Part shown: piece after piece, positions 455-11,078 of the stretch
How positions within the stretch are numbered: position 1 is the stretch's first letter
Layout of the letters: the number at the start of each line of letters is the position of its first letter
DNA from: an uncultured SAR116 cluster alpha proteobacterium
Lineage (GTDB): Bacteria > Pseudomonadota > Alphaproteobacteria > Puniceispirillales > Marisalimonadaceae
Direction of reading: 5' to 3'
Length of the DNA: 64,000 nucleotides
NCBI GenBank assembly: GCA_902619805.1
Contig: CACNGC010000007.1
Span: forward strand, 1 to 64,000
Translations under genes and position numbers: made by a program
Notes under the pieces: generated by a model
The model's input: only the letters and a program-made list of their open reading frames with translations
The model's database searches: none
What the model was told of the DNA's origin: nothing

Positions 455-786
455 TATTAAATTCTCAAAATCTTAGTTGATATAATTACTAAATTTTCTT
501 TTACATTAATTATTTTATAATCTTTTAATCTTTTCAATCTTTTTTAATATTTTTGTCTATTCATATAAACTAACTTTGGGATCCATTCTAAACCGCTAAA
601 TATTTTTAGTTATTACTATTTAAGAAGTTTCAAATTGTTTTAATATCCAATCCTATATCAGATAATGATTTAATAAGTTTTAATTTAAACTCTCTTTTGG
701 AATTTAATTTTTTTACAGATAGTTGTTTGGTTTCAATTGTAACATTGCATTTAATATATAATAGATAATTACCATATATCTGTCTA
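455..786. other. AT-rich intergenic stretch
   Basis: No convincing open frame, RNA gene or terminator is seen between the secreted hypothetical gene and the left flank repeat of the mobile element. Confidence 0.4.
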
Positions 787-810
787 AATTTATTCCACTG
801 TTACCGATTG
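787..810 (-). repeat. Displaced glmS 3'-end remnant, left flank repeat
   Basis: Read on the minus strand this 24-bp stretch encodes Q-S-V-T-V-E-stop followed by ATT. GlmS at the other end of the element finishes K-S-V-T-V-E-stop followed by ATT (9228-9251). The two copies agree at 18 of 24 bases, with most differences at third codon positions. Each lies just outside the terminal inverted motif. The simplest reading is that this is the original tail of glmS, or an attachment-site half, moved away when the element inserted. Confidence 0.8.
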
Positions 811-812
811 GA

Positions 813-829
813 TTGAACTGATGAAATAA
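813..829 (+). repeat. Left terminal motif copy R1
   Basis: TTGAACTGATGAAATA at 813-828 is identical over 16 bp to the inverse copy at 3161-3176, so the pair encloses both recombinase genes. It starts 2 bp inside the left glmS-tail repeat. It is probably a recombinase binding or end sequence. Confidence 0.75.
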
Positions 830-843
830 GTTGTTATCACAAT

Positions 844-2556
844 CTACCCTGCTCTCTGCTTTTTTTTTACTCTGTTTCTTTTAGAAACAAATTTCATAAC
901 TTCATTAGTTGTATCAGTTTTTTTACCTTCTACCACTTTGTATTTTCTTGGTTTTGTACCTTCTACAACTTCTAATGCATCATCAACAATCTTCATCTTG
1001 AAATGGAAATTAATAGTATGTCCGTTTTGTATCTTTTTCTTTCCATCTCTATCCAACCCATAATCACCTTTAACAACAATCTTATCTAAAACACCTTGCA
1101 GAAAGTCCTTTTGTTTCTTCTCATTAGAGGTGTTGAGTTCCATTGTCTCTCCATACTTCTCAACCCAATCTAACCAGTTCTTATCTTGTCCTAAATCATC
1201 AATTTGTTTTTCAGTCTCAACCAATAGAGTTTTTCTGTTTTCTAATTCATCTCCATATCTGGAAATAATCTTATCAACTACGTTTGAGTCCTTTTCACCC
1301 ATTCCCTTTTGGATTTCTATTTCAACAATGTTGTCCTCTATATTCTCAATTTCTTTTTGGAGTTTCTGTATCTTCTTTTCTAAATTTTTTTCTGTTTCTT
1401 TAATGTTGGTTCTTTTCTCATACTGTTCTTGCATTACTTCCTTCTTAAAGTTTTCTTTAAGTATGTGAGATTTGCTTACCTTGTCTTTAACAAACCCCAG
1501 AACATATTCGTTGAAGGAATCCATTTGGAGAGATTTTGTATTGGTGCAAACAGAACCATCACCACTCTTCCAATCATAATGTTTAGAAAGACAGTAATAA
1601 GTTCTGGTATTAACTTTATAACCTAATGAAGAGGTTGATTTGAGATGCCGAGAACCATAGTTTCTGCCGCACTCACAAACCATAAAATCTTCTAATAATG
1701 AAAAGTGCTGTTTGTTATTTGATGGGTTTTTAAGATTGCCAGTAATCTTTTTATTAACCCTATTGAACTGACCTACATTAATAACCTTGGGTATTTTGTA
1801 GGAAAAACTCTCTTGGACTTTTTTGATATATTGAGTGTGAATTCCAGTATAGGACTTATTCTTCAACATTACATTGAGAGTACCTAAACTCCATAATCCA
1901 TTCTGGGTTCGTCTTGGTTCTACACCTTCTCTATCAAGAATATCTTTTATCTCTTTTGTAGATTTTCCTTTTTCATATGAGTCAAAAATAAACCTTACCC
2001 ATTTGGATTCTTCTGGATTTATCTTCCATTCTTTATTGACTGTTTTGTATCCAAATAAGGGAGTGCCACCAAGATAAACTGGTTTCTTTGGTGCATCTTT
2101 TCTCAACCGATATAGTTTTCCTTGAATAGATTTATTTTGTCTTTCTTCGTTCTCTAACTGCTTTGATGCAGTCAAAACATTATAAGTAAATCTCTCTGCC
2201 GGACTGTCTAAATCAAGAAGACTTGGTGTTTCACCTTCATAAAGATTTATCTTGTGTGTTTCCAAATAATCCCTACGAAAAAGGAGAGAGTCAGTCATAT
2301 CTCTAAACAATCTACTTCTATCACTTACCCACAGATTTTTAACTAACCCACTTCTAATATCATATTTGAGATTTTCTAAAACTTGACGAAACTGAATAGT
2401 AGAACTTCTTGCACCCTCATTATGAAACCTTGGTTCTAATCCAAGTTTCTTTGCAACTTTGACTCCCAAGTCTTTTTGCACCTCAAGAGAATTGCCCTCT
2501 TTCTTCTGTTCTTGGGTACTTACACGAAAATAAATGTCTAAAAACTTGTAAGACAT
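844..2556 (-). CDS. Large serine recombinase (integrase)
   Basis: This 570-residue protein has the layout of large serine integrases. An N-terminal catalytic domain carries the nucleophile motif FRVSTQEQ (Ser13) and the conserved SDRSRLFRD segment near residues 78-86. A recombinase domain follows (about 160-270) with the typical G-KSTKEIKDIL and W-SLGTLNVMLKNKSYTG pattern. A zinc ribbon begins with CECG near 293 and continues with later Cys residues (YYC...SVC), then comes a long coiled coil (about 385-470). The family cuts and joins two attachment sites through a covalent serine-DNA link. The stop lies 15 bp inside the left terminal motif. The start codon overlaps the stop of the upstream resolvase-type gene (TAATG), so the two are translationally coupled and probably share the promoter at 3184-3212. 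No truncation is visible. It most likely directs insertion at glmS; which of the two enzymes acts on which site is unknown. Confidence 0.93.
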   Translation of the reverse strand: MSYKFLDIYFRVSTQEQKKEGNSLEVQKDLGVKVAKKLGLEPRFHNEGARSSTIQFRQVLENLKYDIRSGLVKNLWVSDRSRLFRDMTDSLLFRRDYLETHKINLYEGETPSLLDLDSPAERFTYNVLTASKQLENEERQNKSIQGKLYRLRKDAPKKPVYLGGTPLFGYKTVNKEWKINPEESKWVRFIFDSYEKGKSTKEIKDILDREGVEPRRTQNGLWSLGTLNVMLKNKSYTGIHTQYIKKVQESFSYKIPKVINVGQFNRVNKKITGNLKNPSNNKQHFSLLEDFMVCECGRNYGSRHLKSTSSLGYKVNTRTYYCLSKHYDWKSGDGSVCTNTKSLQMDSFNEYVLGFVKDKVSKSHILKENFKKEVMQEQYEKRTNIKETEKNLEKKIQKLQKEIENIEDNIVEIEIQKGMGEKDSNVVDKIISRYGDELENRKTLLVETEKQIDDLGQDKNWLDWVEKYGETMELNTSNEKKQKDFLQGVLDKIVVKGDYGLDRDGKKKIQNGHTINFHFKMKIVDDALEVVEGTKPRKYKVVEGKKTDTTNEVMKFVSKRNRVKKKQRAG

Positions 2557-3146
2557 TATGCAACCTCACCTAATACCCTGCTGATTGAACCAAGACCAAT
2601 ATTCATTTCATCTCTAATCTTTCGGTATGAATATCCCTGCTCTTTCAACTCAATAATTTTTTGTTTTTTCTCTTCAGTAATAAAATCCTTACCACCATAT
2701 TTTTTACCCAAACTTCTCATTCTGTTAATTGCAGACATTTGCCTGTTGGATTGGATTGATTTTTCCATCTCACTAAAGATGCTGACAAAATAGAAAAATA
2801 ATTTAGACATACCACCATCATCAGTATCTAAATTCTGTTTCCAACTAAACAAAGAGATATTGTAATCATCAAATAAAGATAGAGTTTTAACTACCTCACT
2901 CACACTTCTCCCAAGTCTGGATAAGTCATAGACAACTACTTTTGTGTAAGGTCTTTTTTTCAAGTCTCCTAACATTCTGGATAGTTCTTCTCTGTCCTCA
3001 TTCTTCTTTGTTCCAGAAACAACTTCCTTATAAGTCTCAACTATTTTCCAACCTCTTCTTTCACATAGTTCCAGAAGTTCAACTTCTTGATTGTCTGTAG
3101 TTTGACCCGAACTACTTACTCTCAAAAACAATGCAACTTTTTCCAT
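2556..3146 (-). CDS. Resolvase/invertase-type small serine recombinase
   Basis: This 196-residue protein matches the resolvase/invertase family in length and order. The catalytic motif LRVSSSGQT lies at residues 8-16, with Ser11 the likely nucleophile. The YDLSRLGRS arginine-containing segment is near 74-82, and an E-helix region follows. The C-terminal helix-turn-helix is of Hin type (EEKKQKIIELKEQGYSYRK onward). Its stop overlaps the ATG of the large recombinase by one base. Upstream are a strong leftward sigma-70-like promoter and two outward-facing copies of the element's repeated motif, an arrangement expected if a recombinase represses its own promoter. It could resolve, invert, or act together with the large recombinase; the sequence does not decide. 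Confidence 0.92.
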   Translation of the reverse strand: MEKVALFLRVSSSGQTTDNQEVELLELCERRGWKIVETYKEVVSGTKKNEDREELSRMLGDLKKRPYTKVVVYDLSRLGRSVSEVVKTLSLFDDYNISLFSWKQNLDTDDGGMSKLFFYFVSIFSEMEKSIQSNRQMSAINRMRSLGKKYGGKDFITEEKKQKIIELKEQGYSYRKIRDEMNIGLGSISRVLGEVA

Positions 3147-3160
3147 ATTCTTCGACTCTC

Positions 3161-3176
3161 TATTTCATCAGTTCAA
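3161..3176 (-). repeat. Internal motif copy R2
   Basis: On the minus strand this reads TTGAACTGATGAAATA, identical over 16 bp to R1. It lies between the start codon of the resolvase-type gene and its promoter, where a bound protein could block transcription. Confidence 0.75.
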
Positions 3177-3183
3177 CAATTAT

Positions 3184-3212
3184 AGTATAACAATATTTCT
3201 AACAAAAGTCAA
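3184..3212 (-). promoter_or_regulatory. Leftward promoter for the recombinase pair
   Basis: On the minus strand TTGACT (3207-3212) and TATACT (3184-3189) are separated by exactly 17 bp, a near-consensus sigma-70-type promoter. It would drive the resolvase-type and large recombinase genes. Copies R2 and R3 of the element motif flank it, facing outward, which suggests autoregulation. Confidence 0.7.
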
Positions 3213-3226
3213 GTTTGATTGATTTT

Positions 3227-3238
3227 ACTGATGAAATA
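3227..3238 (+). repeat. Internal motif copy R3
   Basis: ACTGATGAAATA on the plus strand, upstream of both the leftward recombinase promoter and the rightward cargo promoter. With the right-end copies it encloses the cargo genes. Confidence 0.65.
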
Positions 3239-3295
3239 TTTTTTTACAATATCGTCTGTAATCGTTATATAGAAACAGTTACAGAGGTATATGAC

Positions 3296-3324
3296 TTGAC
3301 TTTTGATTCATTTTATGCTACTTT
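3296..3324 (+). promoter_or_regulatory. Rightward cargo promoter
   Basis: TTGACT (3296-3301), a 17-bp spacer and TACTTT (3319-3324) form a reasonable sigma-70-type promoter. Its -35 surroundings (CTTGACTTTTG) are identical to those of the leftward recombinase promoter, as if one promoter had been duplicated in inverse orientation. It would transcribe the small genes from 3438. A short hairpin, AACGAAT-ctt-ATTCGTT, lies in the leader at 3355-3371. Confidence 0.5.
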
Positions 3325-3437
3325 AATAATTGCAAGGATGAAAGAAATAGTCGCAACGAATCTTATTCGTTTTCCGTAGGTTCTCTCCAATAACTCGCAT
3401 CATCAAAAAATATAACTAACTTATAAGGAGACTCGTA

Positions 3438-3674
3438 ATGAGTATTAAACCTATTAGTGCGAAGGAACACGCACTCAAATCTTTTAGTGTTCCATATGAA
3501 CTTTGTTTAATTGAAAGACATACAATTCTTCTGGATGCGTATTCCAAAGAAGATGCAATCCAACAAGTAGAGGAGATGAACTCTAATCTGGAATTATTAT
3601 TGGAATCCAGTATCGCAGAGGAGTTTGAGATTGATGAAGATGGAATAGTTTGTGAGGAGAATGATGATGAGTAA
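3438..3674 (+). CDS. Small acidic hypothetical protein
   Basis: This 78-residue protein has a good ribosome site (AAGGAG at 3425-3430). The sequence is acidic at its C-terminus (EIDEDGIVCEENDDE) and has no recognised domain. The N-terminal half resembles small phage proteins that act on host processes only in general character. It is the first gene of the rightward cargo run and overlaps the next gene by about 8 bp. Unknown function. Confidence 0.65.
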   Translation: MSIKPISAKEHALKSFSVPYELCLIERHTILLDAYSKEDAIQQVEEMNSNLELLLESSIAEEFEIDEDGIVCEENDDE

Positions 3675-4014
3675 TCGATACGAAATAGAAACTTTACTTA
3701 CAACAACAGAAGAAGAGTGTTGTGCAAGAGAAGATATAAAAGAAATAAAAGATTATTTAGAAAAACACAATGATATTGAAGATTACTCAATTTCATATGG
3801 AATGTACTGGGAAGGTGATGACATCAGGCAACCTTTACACGACTATAGTTGTCAATTTCTTGTAAATGCAGAAAATGTTGAATCTGTAAAAGAAATTATG
3901 AGTTCGATATTTTTTCATATTGAAACAAAGATATTACAATATAGTGATATGAGTTTTTATGATGAAGCAGACGAATTAAATATTCGATTAATTGAGTATA
4001 ATGAAGTTGCTTAA
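3667..4014 (+). CDS. Small acidic hypothetical protein
   Basis: Three in-frame ATGs follow the ribosome site GAGGAG (3654-3659). The one at 3667 has the best spacing and gives about 115 residues starting MSNRYEIE. The protein is acidic, with no membrane segment, signal peptide or known motif. It overlaps the 3' end of the preceding gene, so the two are probably co-translated. A terminator hairpin follows at 4060-4093. Unknown function. Confidence 0.6.
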   Translation: MSNRYEIETLLTTTEEECCAREDIKEIKDYLEKHNDIEDYSISYGMYWEGDDIRQPLHDYSCQFLVNAENVESVKEIMSSIFFHIETKILQYSDMSFYDEADELNIRLIEYNEVA

Positions 4015-4059
4015 TTATACTTTTTGACACTCATAGAGAACTCAAAAATTATAAATAGT

Positions 4060-4093
4060 AAGGAGTCCATAGTTGTTGCTGGACTCCTTTTTT
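4060..4093 (+). terminator. Rho-independent terminator
   Basis: AAGGAGTCC (4060-4068) pairs perfectly with GGACTCCTT (4081-4089) around a 12-nt loop, followed by a run of T. It would end transcription after the two small acidic genes. A TATAAATA box lies just upstream (4050-4057). Confidence 0.75.
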
Positions 4094-4116
4094 ACTTTTT
4101 ACTGAAAGGAACAAAC

Positions 4117-4509
4117 ATGAAAAATATTAATCATAATCAAAAACTATTTATAACGATTGTAGATTACTTAGAGACTGTAATTGCAAAACCATCTCTTAAA
4201 CAATTTGATGTAGGTAATTATTCGCAACTTGCATATGCGTTAAATCTTCAAGGAATAAGAAATAGTAAGGGGAAAGAACTTACAAAAGAAACAATCAAAA
4301 AATGTATCCAAAGAACAAAAAACAAAGAACAATTTTACCCAGAAGTTTTTTGTAAGAAACCTTGGGAGAAAACCTCTTTATGGGACTTTATAAAAGATAC
4401 TGATACTCAAACCCAAAAGTCAAAGAGTGAAGAGGATTTAGATAAATTTACTTGGGGTATTATCAGTAACAATCATAGTCATTTTTATGGGGAGAAAAAT
4501 TATGCGTAG
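4117..4509 (+). CDS. Small protein with a recombinase-type helix-turn-helix
   Basis: The start at 4117 is chosen because AAAGGA lies 6-11 bp before it; a longer TTG reading runs through the terminator hairpin and is unlikely. The 130-residue product has a segment around residues 35-70 (NYSQLAYALNLQGIRNSKGK, then an ETIKKCIQRTK helix). It matches the pattern of the DNA-reading domain of serine recombinases: A-L-N-x2-G-I-x3-x-G-K followed by a helix ending in a basic stretch. There is no catalytic domain. It may be a DNA-binding accessory or regulatory protein. It overlaps the next gene by 8 bp. The pattern is seen; function is inferred. Confidence 0.6.
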   Translation: MKNINHNQKLFITIVDYLETVIAKPSLKQFDVGNYSQLAYALNLQGIRNSKGKELTKETIKKCIQRTKNKEQFYPEVFCKKPWEKTSLWDFIKDTDTQTQKSKSEEDLDKFTWGIISNNHSHFYGEKNYA

Positions 4510-4969
4510 TGTCCCCAGAACTAATGAATCTCTTATAAATAGTTTTGTCAGTAATAAAGAAATACCTTTATCCAAAAACAACATTACTGATGAAGTTTCC
4601 TATAATGATTTATCCTCTAAAAACTGGAACGTCAGTTCCAATCAACACCTTGCAAAAGGTGTTGATTATTCCAGTCCCAATTATGAATTGAAACGAACCA
4701 AAGAGTTTATAAAACACTACCGAAGACTGAAGAAGGATAGTGATTTCTGGTTATGGAAAAACCCTATTGGAAGAATGGTAATAAAGAATTGGTTGGATAA
4801 GGAAATAGAACAACTCGTTGAAATTGGAAATCATAAACCCAATAAACACCCTTATTCGTATGAAGAGTATTGCTATCTCACAGACCAGAGATTGAAGAAT
4901 AAATATAACAAAAAACTAAAAGAAGGACTCTGGTTTGGAGAAGAAAAAAATAAACCAGAAGAGTGGTAA
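4502..4969 (+). CDS. Hypothetical basic protein
   Basis: The ATG at 4502 follows a GGGGAG ribosome site (4489-4494) and is preferred over the ATG at 4487, which overlaps that site. The 155-residue protein is basic and rich in Lys, Trp and Tyr in its second half (RLKKDSDFWLWKNPIGR), with no known domain. An unusual nested hairpin lies inside the coding sequence at 4623-4675. It belongs to the rightward cargo run. Unknown function. Confidence 0.6.
   Translation: MRSVPRTNESLINSFVSNKEIPLSKNNITDEVSYNDLSSKNWNVSSNQHLAKGVDYSSPNYELKRTKEFIKHYRRLKKDSDFWLWKNPIGRMVIKNWLDKEIEQLVEIGNHKPNKHPYSYEEYCYLTDQRLKNKYNKKLKEGLWFGEEKNKPEEW
4623..4675 (+). other. Nested inverted repeat with GCAA tetraloop inside a CDS
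   Basis: ATCAACACCTT (4641-4651) and AAGGTGTTGAT (4656-4666) form a perfect 11-bp stem closed by GCAA, a GNRA-type tetraloop. It is enclosed by an outer pair ACTGGAA/TTCCAGT (4623-4629 and 4669-4675), with a competing small stem TGGAAC-gtca-GTTCCA on the left arm. The structure is seen directly; whether it acts in RNA or DNA is unknown. Confidence 0.6.
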
Positions 4970-4983
4970 TTAAGGGAAACACT

Positions 4984-5235
4984 ATGACTAATTTTACACC
5001 TACTTATCTTCACCACCGACAAAGGGAAGAAGAGAAAATAAGAAAACAACAAAGAATAGATTTTGCGTTAAGAAATGAACCAAATAATTCAACTTCTGTT
5101 GCAAGTGATTCAATCACATTCACCAAGAAACATAAACAGAGTATGAGTGATGCACTTGCAGAGGTAAGAAAGAATGAAACAACTATTCCAGATGGACTGC
5201 ATATGCGTCCAGAGAACCATAAGGGGTTCTATTAA
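4984..5235 (+). CDS. Small hypothetical protein
   Basis: The start at 4984 follows AAGGGA (4972-4977). The 83-residue product is highly charged and hydrophilic, starts MTNFTPTYLHHRQREEEKIR, and ends in a polar tail. No domain is recognised. Its TAA shares a base with the ATG of the next gene (TAATG), so the two are translationally coupled. Unknown function. Confidence 0.6.
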   Translation: MTNFTPTYLHHRQREEEKIRKQQRIDFALRNEPNNSTSVASDSITFTKKHKQSMSDALAEVRKNETTIPDGLHMRPENHKGFY

Positions 5236-5597
5236 TGTCTATTGAAAGAGATTTAAGGGAAGGTCTTATAACAGAAGAACCAGAACAATTAGATGAATCT
5301 TTAATGGGATTATTAAGGACTGCTGCGATTGCAATTAATGTAAGAAACACTCTTCAATCTGGTAAAAAGGTTCAATCTTCTGCGACAGAACTGCGACAGA
5401 TAGGGACTAAACTAAAAAGAGATAAAACCACCGAAGACGCACAAAAGACAATTGCAGAGGGTTTTGTCGCACTTTCTAAAACCTTTGAGAGTTTAGAAGA
5501 AATGTTGCGAAGAAATGCGTACATTTCTGCATCTGGTGGTTTGTTTAGTGATAGGACTTATAATCTTTTACGCAAAATGGAAAAGAAACGTAGGTAA
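5235..5597 (+). CDS. Hypothetical helical protein
   Basis: This 120-residue protein is predicted from its heptad-like Leu/Ala spacing to be mostly helical, with a basic C-terminus (LLRKMEKKRR). The ribosome site AAGGGG lies in the end of the preceding gene. A short tandem repeat (CTGCGACAGA, about 5387-5407) lies in the coding region. No known domain or catalytic motif is visible. Unknown function. Confidence 0.6.
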   Translation: MSIERDLREGLITEEPEQLDESLMGLLRTAAIAINVRNTLQSGKKVQSSATELRQIGTKLKRDKTTEDAQKTIAEGFVALSKTFESLEEMLRRNAYISASGGLFSDRTYNLLRKMEKKRR

Positions 5598-5651
5598 GTG
5601 CGTAAGAAATATAAATACTTGCGTAAAACAAATTTAGTTTAGGAGAAATTG

Positions 5652-5843
5652 ATGAAGAAGTACGACTATCAAAGAAGTATTAGATTAAATGATGATGTAA
5701 AACAGTCCTTGGAAAAGATTTGTGAGGTTTATAAAGTTAATGAATCCGACTACATACGCAATTCATTAGAAAAAAACCTTATAATTGATATGCAGAGTAA
5801 AGGACTTAAACCTACCTTTTCCTCATTCTTACAAACTGCGTAA
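5652..5843 (+). CDS. Ribbon-helix-helix-type DNA-binding protein
   Basis: The ATG at 5652 follows AGGAG (5641-5645) with good spacing, giving 63 residues. The N-terminus has the beta-strand pattern of CopG/Arc-type regulators (YQRSIRLNDDVKQSLEKIC), followed by a second helix with NESDYIRNSLEK, as in ribbon-helix-helix repressors or antitoxins. No toxin partner is adjacent. It ends the rightward cargo run and is followed by a strong terminator. A TATAAATA sequence (5610-5617) precedes it. Confidence 0.65.
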   Translation: MKKYDYQRSIRLNDDVKQSLEKICEVYKVNESDYIRNSLEKNLIIDMQSKGLKPTFSSFLQTA

Positions 5844-5911
5844 AAACCTAAAAAATATAAAAAAGAATATGGTTCTCTTGTGATTTGATTTTGTAATTTA
5901 TGAACCAAGAA

Positions 5912-5950
5912 AGGGTGTCCCAATGTAAAGATTGGAACACCCTATTTTTT
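5912..5950 (+). terminator. Rho-independent terminator of the rightward cargo
   Basis: AGGGTGT-C-CCAAT pairs with ATTGG-A-ACACCCT (12 pairs with one mismatch, loop GTAAAG), followed by ATTTTTT. It separates the rightward run from the convergent leftward secreted-protein genes. Confidence 0.8.
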
Positions 5951-6036
5951 GGAAATTTTACTTAAGGAAAACCAAGGGTTTTAGAGGGTCAATTTTGGGT
6001 ACATTGGAACAAAGGTGTAAATAAAGGTGTTGAACT

Positions 6037-6441
6037 TTATTTTTTGCAAACAAGATTAAGTATTATTTCATTTATATCGTTTGGAGGTGGATACACCCAA
6101 TCTGGTGAGACTTTAATTCCGTAATAAAAAGCACCAGCACTTGACATAGGTTCAGCAGATACCGAAGCACTTAACATCTTAAATCTAAACCTATTACAAT
6201 CACCTTGATTATATGATTTTGTACTCATTACGTTATTTACTGGTTTTAAGTAATCACTCATATCCCACCAATAGACATACCCTCCGTGAAATCTTATTCG
6301 GTCAAAATCTACATAATAATTACTACCTAAAGTATCTTCACCTACTTTCGTCCATTGTGCGTAAGAGGAAGATGAAAAATTTATTATCAAAAAAAATAAT
6401 GCGAAAATAAGAAAAAGACATTTTGTTTTTAATACTATCAT
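6037..6441 (-). CDS. Secreted protein resembling surface-adhesin protein E
   Basis: This 134-residue protein has an N-terminal signal sequence (about residues 1-28, ending SSYAQ). The mature part (WTKVGEDTLGSNYYVDFDRI, then Y-WWDMSDYLKP and paired Cys residues) resembles the small periplasmic surface-adhesin protein E-like family. Function is not established for this family in alphaproteobacteria. It lies convergent to the cargo terminator and is separated by 99 bp from the next leftward gene, so it may have its own promoter. Family assignment is by eye. Confidence 0.6.
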   Translation of the reverse strand: MIVLKTKCLFLIFALFFLIINFSSSSYAQWTKVGEDTLGSNYYVDFDRIRFHGGYVYWWDMSDYLKPVNNVMSTKSYNQGDCNRFRFKMLSASVSAEPMSSAGAFYYGIKVSPDWVYPPPNDINEIILNLVCKK

Positions 6442-6540
6442 TTCAATAGAATAACCTACCCCATTAAATCTAACAATATTTTCTAATCTATAAATGCAAT
6501 AAAGATACTAATACAATTACCATTTTGTATTATTTGTTTA

Positions 6541-7164
6541 TTAACTGTTTTTCTTAAACTTCACTTTGCCTGGGTAAGTTTTATATCTTTCAATTATCTC
6601 ATCTATTTTGTCTGTGATATTTCGACAATCTAATGTAATAACATGGGGTTCTCCAACATAAGTCCCAATAAATATACCCCCCCAATCACTCTTGTAATAT
6701 CTCTTCAATTCAAGACTATATCCACCTACAATATTGTATTTTTGGAAACTTAATGAGTCTTGTCTAATAGTAAGTCTTCCCAGATAATACTTTAGAGTTC
6801 GACTACTATTATTATAAAATGACGCAATTTTGGATTTAATTTCTCCTTTTTGTGCGAAAAAACTTGTATCAAAATATTCTGCTGAATCATGTTTCAATTG
6901 AAATTTTATTTTTTCACCAACAGTTTGATAAATTAATGACAACTTATCTCCAATTTTGGGTTGGTTAGTGTAATGAGAATATCTTTTAGGTTTTCCTTCT
7001 TTAACCTTAATAATAATTTGGTCTGTAATTTTACAACTCATTTCACCTGCTAATGTTGTTTTGTTTGCATTGTACCATTTATTCCATTCTTCAAGGTTTG
7101 ATGCAAAAATGTTTGGAGAAATAATAATAAAGATGAATGTGAAAAATATTTTATTATTAAACAT
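6541..7164 (-). CDS. Secreted hypothetical protein
   Basis: This 207-residue protein has a signal peptide (MFNNKIFFTFIFIIISPNIFA). The mature domain is beta-rich in appearance, with two Cys (SCKI near residue 43, LDCRN near 177) that could form a disulfide. No family is recognised. Its ATG overlaps the stop of the upstream 99-residue gene by one base. It therefore belongs to an operon with that gene and the M48 peptidase, which suggests an envelope role. Confidence 0.6.
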   Translation of the reverse strand: MFNNKIFFTFIFIIISPNIFASNLEEWNKWYNANKTTLAGEMSCKITDQIIIKVKEGKPKRYSHYTNQPKIGDKLSLIYQTVGEKIKFQLKHDSAEYFDTSFFAQKGEIKSKIASFYNNSSRTLKYYLGRLTIRQDSLSFQKYNIVGGYSLELKRYYKSDWGGIFIGTYVGEPHVITLDCRNITDKIDEIIERYKTYPGKVKFKKNS

Positions 7165-7463
7165 TACCTAAAATACCCTTTCTCACACCAATACTTTACT
7201 TCAACACCAATTTGATTTTGGAATAAATCACGAGCAATAAGACAGTTTTTCCAATTGTAATCAAATCTACCTTTTTTAGTTTTATCTTTCGCATCAAAAG
7301 TTGCGATATGGTAGCGATAATCATCACCAAGAAGACTGCTTCTATATAAAGTTGCAACTTCTTTGTCATCACTTTTGGCATATGCGTAAGTTGTAAAAAG
7401 AATTGAAATAAAAATGATTGTTAAACCTATCATCAAAAACAATCTTTTATAAACTTCTATCAT
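7164..7463 (-). CDS. Small membrane-anchored or secreted protein
   Basis: This 99-residue protein has one N-terminal hydrophobic segment (about residues 8-28), followed by a short extracytoplasmic part with two Cys (NCLIARD and YWCEKG). It overlaps the M48 gene upstream by 4 bp (ATGA) and the next gene by 1 bp, so all three are probably translated from one message. No family is recognised. Confidence 0.6.
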   Translation of the reverse strand: MIEVYKRLFLMIGLTIIFISILFTTYAYAKSDDKEVATLYRSSLLGDDYRYHIATFDAKDKTKKGRFDYNWKNCLIARDLFQNQIGVEVKYWCEKGYFR

Positions 7464-8794
7464 TTCTTAAATCCATTAAATTCACCTAATTTTTTTCCTA
7501 ACATAGTTCCATCATCAATATAGATAATACCTCTTAAAGAACCATCTGTGTATTCTCTTAATTGAAGATTACCTTGTCCATATTTGTCATTCCACTTGAA
7601 CCAATACCCATGTTGATTTGTTCCTGTAAATGCAATATTTCCTTTTTCTAATTTATTATTAAAGTTATAATAAAATAATCCTCGTGCGAGATTTTGAGTA
7701 AATCCAAAATTCAATCCAGACTTTTGATTATGTCGGTTAATAGTTCCCTTATATCTTAATGGAACAGTATTATCCCATTTAATATTTGGAGGAGTTAATA
7801 ATCTTTTCTGTGCAATAATTTTTTTTGATTTTGCAATTTCTTGTTCTTGTTTTTTCTTTTCATCTTTTGCTTGTTTGTTCTTTAGATATAAATCTCCAAT
7901 CACTTCCAGAGATTTTAGAACTCCACCACCAGAACCATCTTTAGATAAATCTGCAATGGAGGTATTACAAAACAATTCATTACATTTAAGAATTTTATCT
8001 ACATTAGGATTCACTATTCCTTTCATGTAATATTTCTTTATTTTATTAGATGCATATCTATTTGCTTTTACTCTTTGTGGATTTGCTGGGTGACTCCTAT
8101 AAAATGCATATTGTTCAATTCCTTGAAATTGTTTTTCCCAGATTGTTGCACTTCCTTCTGGGTTAAATCCTGCTAATGCAGTATAGACAATTGCAATCCT
8201 ATCTGCTTCTTGTTCATTGATATTTGTAAATGAAGTAGAATATGCACCTGTAGGTTTATCTCCAAAAACATCTTTAATTTTTAGAAAATAAGTTTCTTCA
8301 ATATGTCCTGCTGTATTATGTGCAAGTTCATGTGCAATCACATATGCAAGTTCATCATCATTGGTCTTTTCTAATAACCCTGAGAAGACTACAAAGTATC
8401 CACCACCAAATGCAAGTGCATTAAAATCTTCGTAATCTATAACTTCATATTTAACTTTGTCTTTATGATTTCTGTAGTGACTTGCATCTACTAATCTATC
8501 TACAATTCTTTTAACTCTTTTGTATTCTGGTGCATCTGGTGAAAATACTTTTACTCCATCTTTTCCTGCTTTTCTTAAAATAAGATTTAGAGATTTTTGT
8601 CCTTGTTTGCGATAATATTTTTCATTATGGAAAGGACTATCAATAGTTCTTAAACCTGTAATTGCGTCTTTCTTAGAAACACCATCTGCAATCTTTCCCA
8701 GAAATTTATCTACATTATTCCAAAATGAAGGTTCTTCATCTGCAAAAATAGATTGTGATAGTAATAAAAAAACTATGACTAATATATTTCTCAT
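7460..8794 (-). CDS. Periplasmic M48-family metallopeptidase
   Basis: This 444-residue protein starts with a signal peptide (to about residue 18). It carries the zinc motif HELAHNTAGH near residues 157-166, with a downstream EQEADRIAIVYTALAGF segment supplying the third ligand, as in M48 peptidases of the BepA/Oma1 group. A Lys/Glu-rich helical stretch (about 310-335) precedes a C-terminal beta domain unlike that of BepA. M48 enzymes degrade misfolded envelope proteins. Here it leads a leftward operon with two small secreted proteins, which may be partners or substrates; that is inference. Being cargo of a mobile element is unusual for an envelope quality-control protease. Confidence 0.85.
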   Translation of the reverse strand: MRNILVIVFLLLSQSIFADEEPSFWNNVDKFLGKIADGVSKKDAITGLRTIDSPFHNEKYYRKQGQKSLNLILRKAGKDGVKVFSPDAPEYKRVKRIVDRLVDASHYRNHKDKVKYEVIDYEDFNALAFGGGYFVVFSGLLEKTNDDELAYVIAHELAHNTAGHIEETYFLKIKDVFGDKPTGAYSTSFTNINEQEADRIAIVYTALAGFNPEGSATIWEKQFQGIEQYAFYRSHPANPQRVKANRYASNKIKKYYMKGIVNPNVDKILKCNELFCNTSIADLSKDGSGGGVLKSLEVIGDLYLKNKQAKDEKKKQEQEIAKSKKIIAQKRLLTPPNIKWDNTVPLRYKGTINRHNQKSGLNFGFTQNLARGLFYYNFNNKLEKGNIAFTGTNQHGYWFKWNDKYGQGNLQLREYTDGSLRGIIYIDDGTMLGKKLGEFNGFKK

Positions 8795-8841
8795 AGTTGT
8801 AGTTTAACCAAAGTTCTATCAATGAGTAAATAAGGATTAAA

Positions 8842-9045
8842 TCAGTCTGGATTCCTTTCCCAAATAACCTTCATTTTCCCCCATACTGGTTTGTATTCTC
8901 TCTGCATATCCGTTAATCTGTTTTCTCTCTCTTTATGTCGTTTGAGAACCGAATAGACAGAGTTTCCAGTAATACCCCACTTATTCCCTCTATGAGTGGT
9001 TATACCCTTATCATTTAGGTGTTTGGTTATTCTACGATAAGACAT
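8842..9045 (-). CDS. Recombinase-type HTH protein, possibly 5'-truncated
   Basis: From the ATG at 9045 the product is 67 residues, but the same frame stays open upstream to the glmS stop. The upstream part adds a family-like segment (KYTPEQEELHNYIKSL) with no ATG, GTG or TTG. The recognised part, MSYRRITKHLNDKGITTHRG followed by W-GITGNSVYSVLKRHKER, has the pattern of the DNA-binding recombinase domain. It may be a remnant of a lost serine recombinase, or a small DNA-binding protein using a rare start. It lies just inside the right end, next to the two terminal motif copies. Confidence 0.5.
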   Translation of the reverse strand: MSYRRITKHLNDKGITTHRGNKWGITGNSVYSVLKRHKERENRLTDMQREYKPVWGKMKVIWERNPD

Positions 9046-9182
9046 TCCAGAGACCTGAAGAGACTTGATGTAGTTGTGAAGTTCTTCTTGTTCTGGTGTG
9101 TATTTCTCATTTTGTTTATAGATAAACTGGTTCGTTTTGACCGAAACACAAAAACAAAGATAGTGAGAAAACTTGGGAATTT

Positions 9183-9195
9183 TTATTTCATCAGT
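9183..9195 (-). repeat. Right-end motif copy R4
   Basis: ACTGATGAAATAA on the minus strand, exactly 30 bp inside the terminal copy R5. Paired sites at one end only are common where recombinases or transposases bind asymmetrically. Confidence 0.65.
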
Positions 9196-9212
9196 AGAGG
9201 AAACAACCGTAG

Positions 9213-9226
9213 TTATTTCATCAGTT
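9213..9226 (-). repeat. Right terminal motif copy R5
   Basis: AACTGATGAAATAA on the minus strand, one base inside the glmS-tail repeat (9228-9251). It is identical over 14 bp to the left terminal copy in inverse orientation. Confidence 0.75.
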
Positions 9227-9227
9227 G

Positions 9228-9251
9228 AATCTACTCTACTGTAACTGATTT
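9228..9251 (-). repeat. glmS 3'-end repeat at the right flank
   Basis: These are the last codons of the intact glmS plus ATT. They match the displaced copy at 787-810 at 18 of 24 bases in the same orientation, giving a direct repeat around the element. Confidence 0.75.
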
Positions 9252-11078
9252 TGCTAAATTCCTTGGTTGATCCACATCAGTGCCTCTTTCATTAGCAACA
9301 TGATAAGCTAATAACTGAGCTGGTATTGCCATAAGAAATGGTGATAATAAAAATTTAAAATCCTTTTCAAAATTTGGTATTTCTATTTTATGATGAGCAA
9401 ACGAAGCCTTTTGAATACAATTTTTGTCTGCAATTAAAATTATTTTTGCACCTCTTGAGTAAGCTTCTTGCAAGTTGCTTATTGCTTTATCTTCGTTACC
9501 ATCCGATACTAAAAACATAATTACTGGCACTTGATCTTCAATAAGGGCAATTGGACCGTGCTTCATTTCACCAGCTGCAAACCCTTCAGCGTGAATATAA
9601 CTAATTTCTTTTAACTTCAATGCGCCCTCTAATGCAATAGGATACAAAAGACCTCTGCCAAGAAATATTATGCTTTTTGCATTTTTTATATTCTGAGCTA
9701 CCAGCTTTACTACATTTGCCATATTTAACATTTGTGCAACAGCGTTAGGTAAAGCTAATATATTAAAACAAATTTTTTGTATTTGATCTGTTGTGATATT
9801 GTTAAATTTTTTTCCAAGAGCAACAGCAATTAAAAATAAAATAACTAACTGAGACGTAAAAGATTTTGTGCTTGCAACACCTATTTCTGCTCCAACTCTA
9901 GTATATAAACTATAATCTACTTCCCTGTCTATTGTACTACCTTCAACATTAACAATTGCAATAGTATTAAGTCCAAGTTCTTTACCATGTCTCAATGCCA
10001 TAAGCGTGTCCAAACTTTCACCAGACTGTGAAATAACTAACATAGCACTTTGGCCAAAAACAGATGGTTTTCTGTATCTATATTCTGACGCTAAGTCAAT
10101 TATAACGGGTAAGTCCGCAAGTTGCTCTATCCAATATTTGCCAACCATCGCAGCATAATAACTCGTCCCAGCCGCAGATATAAGTAATGTATTTTTATTT
10201 TTAAATCCTAATTTATTAAGATCTATTTTAATTTCAGAGTTGTTTTTAATAAGAGTTGAAATTGTTTGAGGAATTACTGAAGGCTGTTCAAATATTTCCT
10301 TTTCCATAAAATGTCTATACCCACCTTTTGAAATTAGACCAATTTCAGCTTTTATATTGATAATTTTTCTATCAACCTTTTCGTCATTCAAATTAAAAAT
10401 CTGAACATCATCCAAATTAACTAATGCATGATCACCGTCTTCTAAGTAAATTATTCTTTGGGTTAGATGATCTATTGAGTGAGCGTCTGATCCTACAAAG
10501 TTTGATTTATTACCCAAACCAATTGCTAAAGGTGACGAATTTCTTGATACAAATAATTCGGATGGAAAATCTAGACTCATTGCTACAAACGCAAATGCAC
10601 CCCTAATATCTTTTAAAACCATCCTACCTGATTGTAGCAAATTATTTCCTAATTTGATATATTTAGTAAAGAGATGTGGTAATACCTCAGTGTCAGTCTG
10701 ACTTTTAAAACTGTATCCCTCTAACAAAAGTTTATTTTTTATTGCTTCATAATTTTCAATAATACCATTATGGACAACAGCTACTTTATTTTCACTTATT
10801 AAAGGATGAGCATTTTCAAGGCTAACATTACCGTGTGTAGCCCACCTTGTATGACCTATAGCTATTGAAGGAACAGATTGTAGATTTAAGTGAGATACTT
10901 CGCTTAATTTATTAATTAAATTTATTAGTTTTCCCTCTGATTTAATATTATGAAGGGTTCCATTAGATACTGAAGCAACACCTGCGGAGTCATATCCTCT
11001 ATATTCAAGTTTTTTTAAACCTTCAATAACGAGTTCATTTGCATTTTGTTTTCCAATTACTGCAACAACACCGCACAT
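9231..11078 (-). CDS. glmS: Glutamine--fructose-6-phosphate aminotransferase (isomerizing)
   Basis: GlmS makes glucosamine-6-phosphate from fructose-6-phosphate and glutamine, the entry step to UDP-GlcNAc for peptidoglycan and LPS. The 615-residue length is normal. The N-terminal glutaminase nucleophile Cys2 is present (MCGVVAVIGK), followed by GYDSAG and HTRWATHG. Two SIS domains follow (AAGTSYYA; SQSGESLDT; AEGFAAGEMKHGPIAL), and the ending DVDQPRNLAKSVTVE is canonical. The last codons are probably supplied or altered by the adjacent mobile element, since a second SVTVE-stop lies beyond it. It is transcribed divergently from glmU, 90 bp away, so the two UDP-GlcNAc genes may share regulation. 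Confidence 0.97.
   Translation of the reverse strand: MCGVVAVIGKQNANELVIEGLKKLEYRGYDSAGVASVSNGTLHNIKSEGKLINLINKLSEVSHLNLQSVPSIAIGHTRWATHGNVSLENAHPLISENKVAVVHNGIIENYEAIKNKLLLEGYSFKSQTDTEVLPHLFTKYIKLGNNLLQSGRMVLKDIRGAFAFVAMSLDFPSELFVSRNSSPLAIGLGNKSNFVGSDAHSIDHLTQRIIYLEDGDHALVNLDDVQIFNLNDEKVDRKIINIKAEIGLISKGGYRHFMEKEIFEQPSVIPQTISTLIKNNSEIKIDLNKLGFKNKNTLLISAAGTSYYAAMVGKYWIEQLADLPVIIDLASEYRYRKPSVFGQSAMLVISQSGESLDTLMALRHGKELGLNTIAIVNVEGSTIDREVDYSLYTRVGAEIGVASTKSFTSQLVILFLIAVALGKKFNNITTDQIQKICFNILALPNAVAQMLNMANVVKLVAQNIKNAKSIIFLGRGLLYPIALEGALKLKEISYIHAEGFAAGEMKHGPIALIEDQVPVIMFLVSDGNEDKAISNLQEAYSRGAKIILIADKNCIQKASFAHHKIEIPNFEKDFKFLLSPFLMAIPAQLLAYHVANERGTDVDQPRNLAKSVTVE

Follow-up and report, generated by a model that had tools for sequence, protein, structure and literature searches.

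What happens to a gene when a mobile element enters its last codons? The question is raised by the end of glmS in an uncultured SAR116 cluster alphaproteobacterium (assembly GCA_902619805.1, 1.98 Mb in 52 contigs). The window, by which we mean the whole stretch of DNA analyzed, comprises the first 64 kb (64,000 nucleotides) of the 85,318-bp contig CACNGC010000007.1, and its base 1 coincides with the contig edge. Here glmS (9231-11078, minus strand) ends in KSVTVE-stop, and a second tail of this kind, QSVTVE-stop, lies more than 8 kb away in the same orientation, the two copies (787-810 and 9228-9251) being identical at 18 of 24 bases. An initial annotation, made from the sequence alone, had proposed that the terminal codons of glmS were the integration site of a serine-recombinase element, which supplied a replacement end. 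Our analysis bears this out: we are highly confident, from the sequence comparisons below, that a cassette encoding a large serine recombinase (LSR) integrates into glmS codons and replaces the end of the gene. On the same comparisons, the window element is one case of a wider, genus-wide cassette-array system. It also seems likely, though with less assurance, that the integrase gene is split by its own attachment site, attP.

A serine-recombinase element in the last codons of glmS

The degenerate tail pattern TCNGTNACNGTNGARTRR has exactly two matches in the 1.98-Mb genome, at 790-807 and 9231-9248, both on the minus strand. As annotated, the terminal motifs that face inward from these tails form an inverted repeat: the right repeat (811-829, minus strand) agrees with the reverse complement of the left one (9213-9231, plus strand, adjoining glmS) at 18 of 19 positions. 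The right repeat is of the same class as those in L045, L047, L052, L062, and L090 (L numbers denote glmS/tail regions and G numbers genomes). A second copy of the terminal motif stands near the left end (9183-9196, plus strand). The exact 13-mer TATTTCATCAGTT occurs three times in the genome, always inside the element, and the 14-base terminal motif allowed up to three mismatches shows no enrichment across the window (39 occurrences versus 33 expected).

Pfam and PHROGs searches confirmed two serine recombinases within these ends, both on the minus strand. The LSR (844-2556, 570 aa) carries resolvase and recombinase domains (PF00239, 3e-13; PF07508, 5e-12) and the conserved serine motif, matches the integrase family phrog_95 (1e-62), and resembles A118-type integrases, with a match to the A118 structure over residues 143-389 (E about 4e-10). 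The second enzyme (2556-3146, 196 aa), a small serine recombinase that overlaps the LSR start, matches PF00239 (1e-32) and the DNA invertase family phrog_125.

The boundary, which had been set 1-2 bp outside the repeats, is better placed at the AC core of each tail (GT on the plus strand, 800-801 and 9241-9242), giving an element of 8,441 bp from core to core (800-9242, minus strand). Judged by the tail pattern and the linkage described below, the glmS-side tail (9231-9248) would be attL-like, with TCAGTT from the host glmS, AC, and an element-derived T-V-E-stop end; the distal tail (790-807) would be attR-like, with TCGGTA from the element, AC, and the displaced former glmS end.

The left flank is chromosomal DNA. 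The gene at 454-1 (minus strand; 151 of about 167 aa, truncated by the contig edge) is conserved in the genus, and 14 genus genomes, the window's included, have a homologue on the far side of the array. The stretch adjoining the tail (455-789, minus strand) instead looks like a decayed left end, probably of an older element, with a helix-turn-helix (HTH) remnant (E 1e-11) at a position common to L040, L044, and L045. Because of this gene and the apparent older left end, we rejected the assignment of 1-786 to the element itself.

Strand exchange at the AC dinucleotide

If strands are exchanged at a single point in the tail, the bases on its two sides belong to different elements, and natural variation can locate that point. 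We searched for GlmS in 61 genomes, obtaining some match in 55, and examined the sequence beyond the glmS stop for up to 20 kb in 39 regions (window included, 512 kb in total). The linkage, symmetry, and deviation tests omit the two-mismatch tails of L048, L060, L072, and L074 and tails less than 80 bp from a region end; the symmetry test also omits pairs with a two-mismatch second tail, L044 excepted.

With strictly defined classes, the left end of the element, which lies to the right of a tail, was linked to tail positions 9, 12, 15, 17, and 18 (p from 0.048 to <0.0002) and not to positions 3 and 6, while the right-end sequence, to the left of a tail, was linked to 3 and 6 and to none of 9-18. 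Between the two sets of positions only AC remains. With looser classes, the left-end class was clearly linked to 9 and 18 only, and position 9 showed a weak link to the right-end class as well (p = 0.02). Among 60 distal tails, otherwise fixed positions deviated at 29 of 240 sites left of AC versus 2 of 300 right of it (Fisher p 4e-9); under the model, left halves never end in glmS, while right halves had served as glmS ends. The ends are also symmetric about the same point, since 40 of 52 elements scored at least 12/18 for dyad symmetry and the axis fell exactly on AC in 37 of these 40. The axis and the linkage switch thus agree on dyad half-sites around a 2-bp core, as in the attP and attB sites of LSR elements. 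In the five closest glmS genes, third-base diversity was 0.8 at the T codon versus a fourfold mean of 0.23; all 24 glmS genes gave a mixed picture (T 0.76 and last V 0.42, versus 0.52).

Some features of these tests count against so precise a mapping. The class shuffles ignore shared descent of the elements, 12 of the 52 elements have no clear symmetric ends (score <12/18), and a score of 12/18 is attained, at one shift or another, by 15% of 2,652 mismatched end pairs as well. On balance, wobble linkage and dyad symmetry indicate that strand exchange is at the AC of TCNGTN-AC-NGTNGARTRR, so that every insertion rewrites the T-V-E-stop end of glmS.

We therefore envisage the element as a site-specific integrative cassette whose LSR would join the AC of a circular attP, made up of the terminal repeats flanking a mimic of the glmS tail, to the AC in the last glmS codons. 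Under this model every integration provides glmS with a new T-V-E-stop end and displaces the old one to the element's distal side, and cassettes consequently stack in tandem and in one orientation.

Cassette arrays behind glmS

At least one further tail follows glmS in 20 of the 24 genus regions. Allowing one mismatch at most, the 39 regions contain 50 extra tails on the glmS strand and none on the opposite strand, and one base-shuffle per region yielded none. The exact pattern, run over 40 whole genus genomes, had 63 matches in 29 genomes (reversed-pattern control, 0). Stretches between successive tails at up to two mismatches (n = 60) measured between 60 bp and 12,967 bp. These cassette numbers are lower bounds, because the tail pattern overlooks a second right-end type without TCNGTN, which had five matches and none in reversed or shuffled sequence. 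The genus regions without an extra tail are L048 and L057 (two-mismatch matches only), L054 (390 bp readable), and L058; in L077 no tail was found. MAFFT alignments of the flanks were poor, except among the window, L040, L044, and L045.

The 167-aa flank gene offers a measure of the array, as it lies 4.3-17.3 kb from glmS in 13 genomes and 182 bp from it in G033 (region L058), where no second tail stands behind glmS. This is a candidate for the empty site that the initial annotation had asked for, although it may carry an old element end instead of being virgin, because the sequence downstream of its glmS is similar to one class of left ends.

The smallest cassettes are 60-bp miniatures, essentially two end repeats and a tail (L040 4053-4113 and L053 0-60, in bp after the glmS stop). 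In L047, L049, L052, and L062, the TGA of glmS overlaps the GTG start of a cassette frame at glmS (GTGA), which would make translational coupling of the cassette to glmS possible.

LSR relatives beside the tail

An order-level search of 136 genomes found an LSR match in 10. All seven full-length LSRs, the window's included, and two C-terminal fragments lie directly before a tail in the glmS orientation; the tenth match is an N-terminal fragment without an adjoining tail. Residues Y9, R11, V12, and S13 are invariant in the seven LSRs. A scan of named genomes gave eight loci, five of them among loci found otherwise. Four are titled SAR116 cluster (AG-915-E09, AG-426-I14, AG-343-K16, and AG-894-M09), and the others Rhodobacteraceae, Paracoccaceae, Alphaproteobacteria, and Proteobacteria. 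We take the AG- names to be those of single-cell genomes, presumably, while two of the titles say metagenome-assembled genome (MAG). The pattern finds a tail at seven of the eight loci, and the eighth has a diverged NNITVE-stop, read by eye. A small resolvase-type enzyme precedes the LSR in the window, G024, and AG-426-I14, and in L080 and L081 a 199-aa frame similar to the 196-aa recombinase was seen by eye in this position.

A class-level search of 385 genomes gave five LSR matches, including the window's genome. The LSR of G321, apparently the same locus as L094, adjoins a tail, and that of G451 has an A9 run (see below) and an NNMTVE-like end. The other two fit less well: G302 has a broken LSR with a tail and no A9 run, and the weak partial match in G190 has neither tail nor run.

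Within the 40 genus genomes, PF07508 found a full LSR in 2 and some match in 19, and beyond those two genomes the matches listed cover only the HTH half of the model. To the extent that these genomes are complete, most cassettes therefore lack an LSR and are non-autonomous. Such cassettes, many of which retain their ends and an HTH frame, would have to be moved in trans.

A viral origin of the element was considered and rejected: nothing was found in viral contigs, either by alignment with the LSR or with the attP pattern, and among 31 plasmid and 168 phage records every match was below 60% identity and none covered 80% of the query. The matches listed in these records had 22-28% identity.

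An integrase gene probably split by its own attP

Behind glmS, and overlapping its end, the window element has an HTH frame of 135 codons (8845-9249, minus strand), a putative severed C-terminal part of the integrase of which the LSR would be the N-terminal part. It exceeds the PF07508 cut-off (23.1 bits; 24.5 bits for the stretch 8842-9120) and has no ATG, GTG, or TTG before the domain. HTH frames directly behind tails were matched at 47 of 99 junctions, some as fragments. Among 38 good tail-adjoining frames, 35 are open from AC to the domain, compared with 14 of 76 cases for the other two frames.

To see what would be read in a circle, we joined the element ends at AC in silico for the four LSR elements that retain both ends. 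In G047, whose integrated LSR stops at 580 aa, the join creates a single 698-aa frame that begins with the LSR and crosses repeat and tail to reach the HTH. The other three require a one-base shift at a run of A9 or A10 (-1 in the window and in G053, +1 in AG-426-I14). In the window this run, at 860-868 on the minus strand (T9 on the plus strand), is our candidate for a -1 slippage or frameshift site joining the LSR and HTH frames across attP. All ten LSRs compared, and both fragments as well, have an A9/A10 run that precedes the tail by 44-76 nt; it is the sole A-run of at least nine in each of the ten genes, which are homologous and not independent. All ten lie directly before a tail, one of them diverged. 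Synonymous shuffles of these lysine-rich genes easily create such runs (A9 or longer somewhere in 100-259 of 300), so we take the position of the run, not its presence, as evidence.

Because the HTH frame continues the LSR gene in the circle, the integrase gene probably contains attP. The LSR of the circular form would be read, directly or after a one-base slip at A9/A10, via repeat and tail into a C-terminal HTH, with slippage, ribosomal frameshifting, and DNA phase variation as candidate modes. Integration would then cut the gene in two, so that the catalytic part comes to lie at the element's distal end and the HTH part next to glmS; such a split should favor integration and hinder excision. 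The HTH frames are under purifying selection (pN 0.169, pS 0.530; 27 non-independent pairs, three of them affected by one HTH having been entered twice), which could predate the loss of LSRs.

Several observations speak against a split gene. The uninterrupted frame is found in only one of the four complete LSR elements, and the ease with which shuffled genes form A-runs has been noted. The profile homology of the HTH to the LSR is weak (E 0.0015, probability 17%), and we regard homology to the LSR's own recombinase domain as suggestive. The structure model of the HTH was mediocre and gave no structural match, and sequence and fold searches of the PDB with it yielded nothing convincing. The circular junction that the initial annotation had looked to was not recovered, the attP pattern having no match in viral contigs. 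Finally, related HTH frames, several of which start with ATG, occur on the opposite strand in some cassettes; the domain may accordingly act independently.

Such a role is the core of the strongest competing explanation, which has an ordinary LSR island at glmS and a separate small HTH gene, encoding a repressor or directionality factor and coupled to glmS expression. We consider this unlikely, if still a serious contender. It would account for the retention of the HTH in cassettes without an LSR, for standalone-looking frames on the other strand, and for frames with their own start, such as the GTG that overlaps the glmS TGA in the four regions named above; the LSR, for its part, matches the catalytic and recombinase families and the A118 structure (residues 143-389). 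It sits poorly with the finding that ATG, GTG, and TTG are all absent between AC and the domain in 23 of the 35 open HTH frames, with circular joins that run through repeat and tail in the LSR frame directly or with one shift, and with the A-run just before the join in every LSR compared.

A bolder version of the split-gene proposal, somewhat less probable again and offered as speculation, would have glmS host an integron-like gene-capture array run by self-splitting serine integrases, with the HTH serving as a cassette "specificity plug" that retools the LSR. A cassette without an LSR, bearing its HTH plug beside its own end repeats, would integrate behind an LSR gene and thereby yield an enzyme retooled for that cassette. 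As the crossover is always at the same AC in fixed frames, the plug could join the LSR in frame or after A-run slippage.

The opposite-strand HTH frames are found in L041, L042, L043, L045, L048, L051, L064, L073, and L074, and most contain YSTV or HSTV, the reverse reading of a tail. Together with the second right-end type, this suggests elements whose integrase gene crosses attP the other way round. When an HTH-type cassette comes after an LSR (L090, L092, L093, and L096; few cases, by eye), the frame groups appear mismatched; perhaps joined LSR-HTH forms are selected against or excise.

Other origins of the second tail

Tn7 at attTn7 also targets the C-terminal codons of glmS, and a Tn7-like transposition downstream of glmS, with the second tail as a target-site duplication or capture, would share with the cassettes the target gene and inverted ends with repeated motifs. 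We reject it as very improbable because the tail sequence on each side of AC follows element class. Between the two window tails, 5 of 18 bases are different, and wobble bases of the tails vary with the class of element. In addition, the exchange falls within the last codons and not downstream of the stop, the target end is rebuilt, and the recombinases beside tails are serine recombinases. A TnsA model, the only Tns protein searched for, had no match in the genome, but none in control genomes either.

Homologous recombination between glmS ends, or assembly error, is equally improbable as a source of the arrays: many genomes are fragmented and the window begins at a contig edge, but the same arrangement is repeated across 20 of 24 genus regions and appears in named assemblies too, the exchange point can be narrowed to two bases, and the opposite strand has no tail at one mismatch or fewer.

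Relation to known systems

Integron arrays consist of small cassettes in tandem and in one orientation at one site, separated by recombination sites. The arrays behind glmS share this layout and differ in their sites, which are dyad ends around a tail with end repeats proper to each cassette, and in the implied serine chemistry. IntI and attC are absent among the cargo Pfam families listed (25 of 50 families; 76 of 126 open reading frames [ORFs] scanned), with no search aimed at either.

A close parallel is with the staphylococcal and enterococcal cassette chromosomes (SCC, SCCmec, and ECC), which passages of PMC6222049 describe as inserting at the 3' end of rlmH by means of LSRs, with direct-repeat att sites containing dyad-forming inverted repeats, and leaving remnants at the site. 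Insertion by an LSR into the 3' end of a conserved gene, dyad att sites, and remnants appear to be common to both, as far as those passages go. The glmS elements, however, belong to another phylum and integrate in glmS instead of rlmH; their cassettes are as small as 60 bp and mostly lack a recombinase; many end specificities share one core; and the integrase frame appears to cross attP. They have one LSR versus the ccrAB pair, a distinction drawn without direct comparison to ccr.

In parts of a 2021 review (PMC8371274), archaeal suicidal tyrosine integrases (SSV1, pTN3, and pT26-2) are described as having attP inside the integrase gene, so that the complete enzyme must come from elsewhere, and self-splitting integrases are called exclusively archaeal. 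In the system at glmS, attP would likewise lie within an integrase gene that is split on integration. The glmS elements differ in being bacterial, in using a serine and not a tyrosine recombinase, in targeting a protein gene, in losing the HTH rather than the catalytic domain, and in their homopolymer slip site. If the split is real, self-splitting integrases would not be confined to archaea or to tyrosine enzymes, and the integration state itself would set which integrase form is made.

Among the papers listed by our literature search, whose coverage mostly excluded subscription papers, we found no description of this glmS system. A Bacillus cereus island that follows a glmS gene is treated in connection with Tn7 (PMC2359905), and a Methylophilaceae tycheposon ends at glmS (PMC10872708). 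The data point to a serine-recombinase platform that stacks cassettes, restriction systems included, behind an essential gene of a marine lineage, the end of which is repeatedly rewritten by cassette insertion. Naturally occurring variants are already enough to locate the crossover to within two bases, and the many attP specificities set against one conserved attB should be useful for studies of serine-integrase specificity.

Promoter region and cargo

Upstream of the small recombinase, a sigma70-like promoter of the recombinase pair, TTGACT-17-TATACT (-35 at 3207-3212, -10 at 3184-3189), stands between two terminal motifs in inverted orientation (3161-3172 and 3227-3238), and the region 3161-3238 is a probable operator. 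A similar pair, with one mismatch in each motif and the same 66-bp spacing, occurs in L090 (9313-9390). Autoregulation of the recombinases by end-binding is a likely prediction.

The rest of the window element is cargo: small genes of unknown function on the plus strand (3438-5843), with a weakly repressor-like frame at 5652-5843 (phrog_876, E 2e-4), and, on the minus strand (6037-8794), secreted-type proteins and an M48 peptidase (7460-8794), the only scanned cargo frame of the window to pass a Pfam cut-off. In the wider survey, which scanned 76 of 126 ORFs of at least 100 aa in the listed elements, the families listed include type I restriction subunits, an Alw26I-type endonuclease, GmrSD, and DNA methylases, together with MADS-like proteins, MORN repeats, and Adhesin_E. 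The glmS array may double as a defense island. Among the large cassettes (in bp after the glmS stop), L061 8878-15788 holds a type I restriction-enzyme gene and two more large frames, and L044 2655-8046 and L062 0-5394 carry large frames as well.

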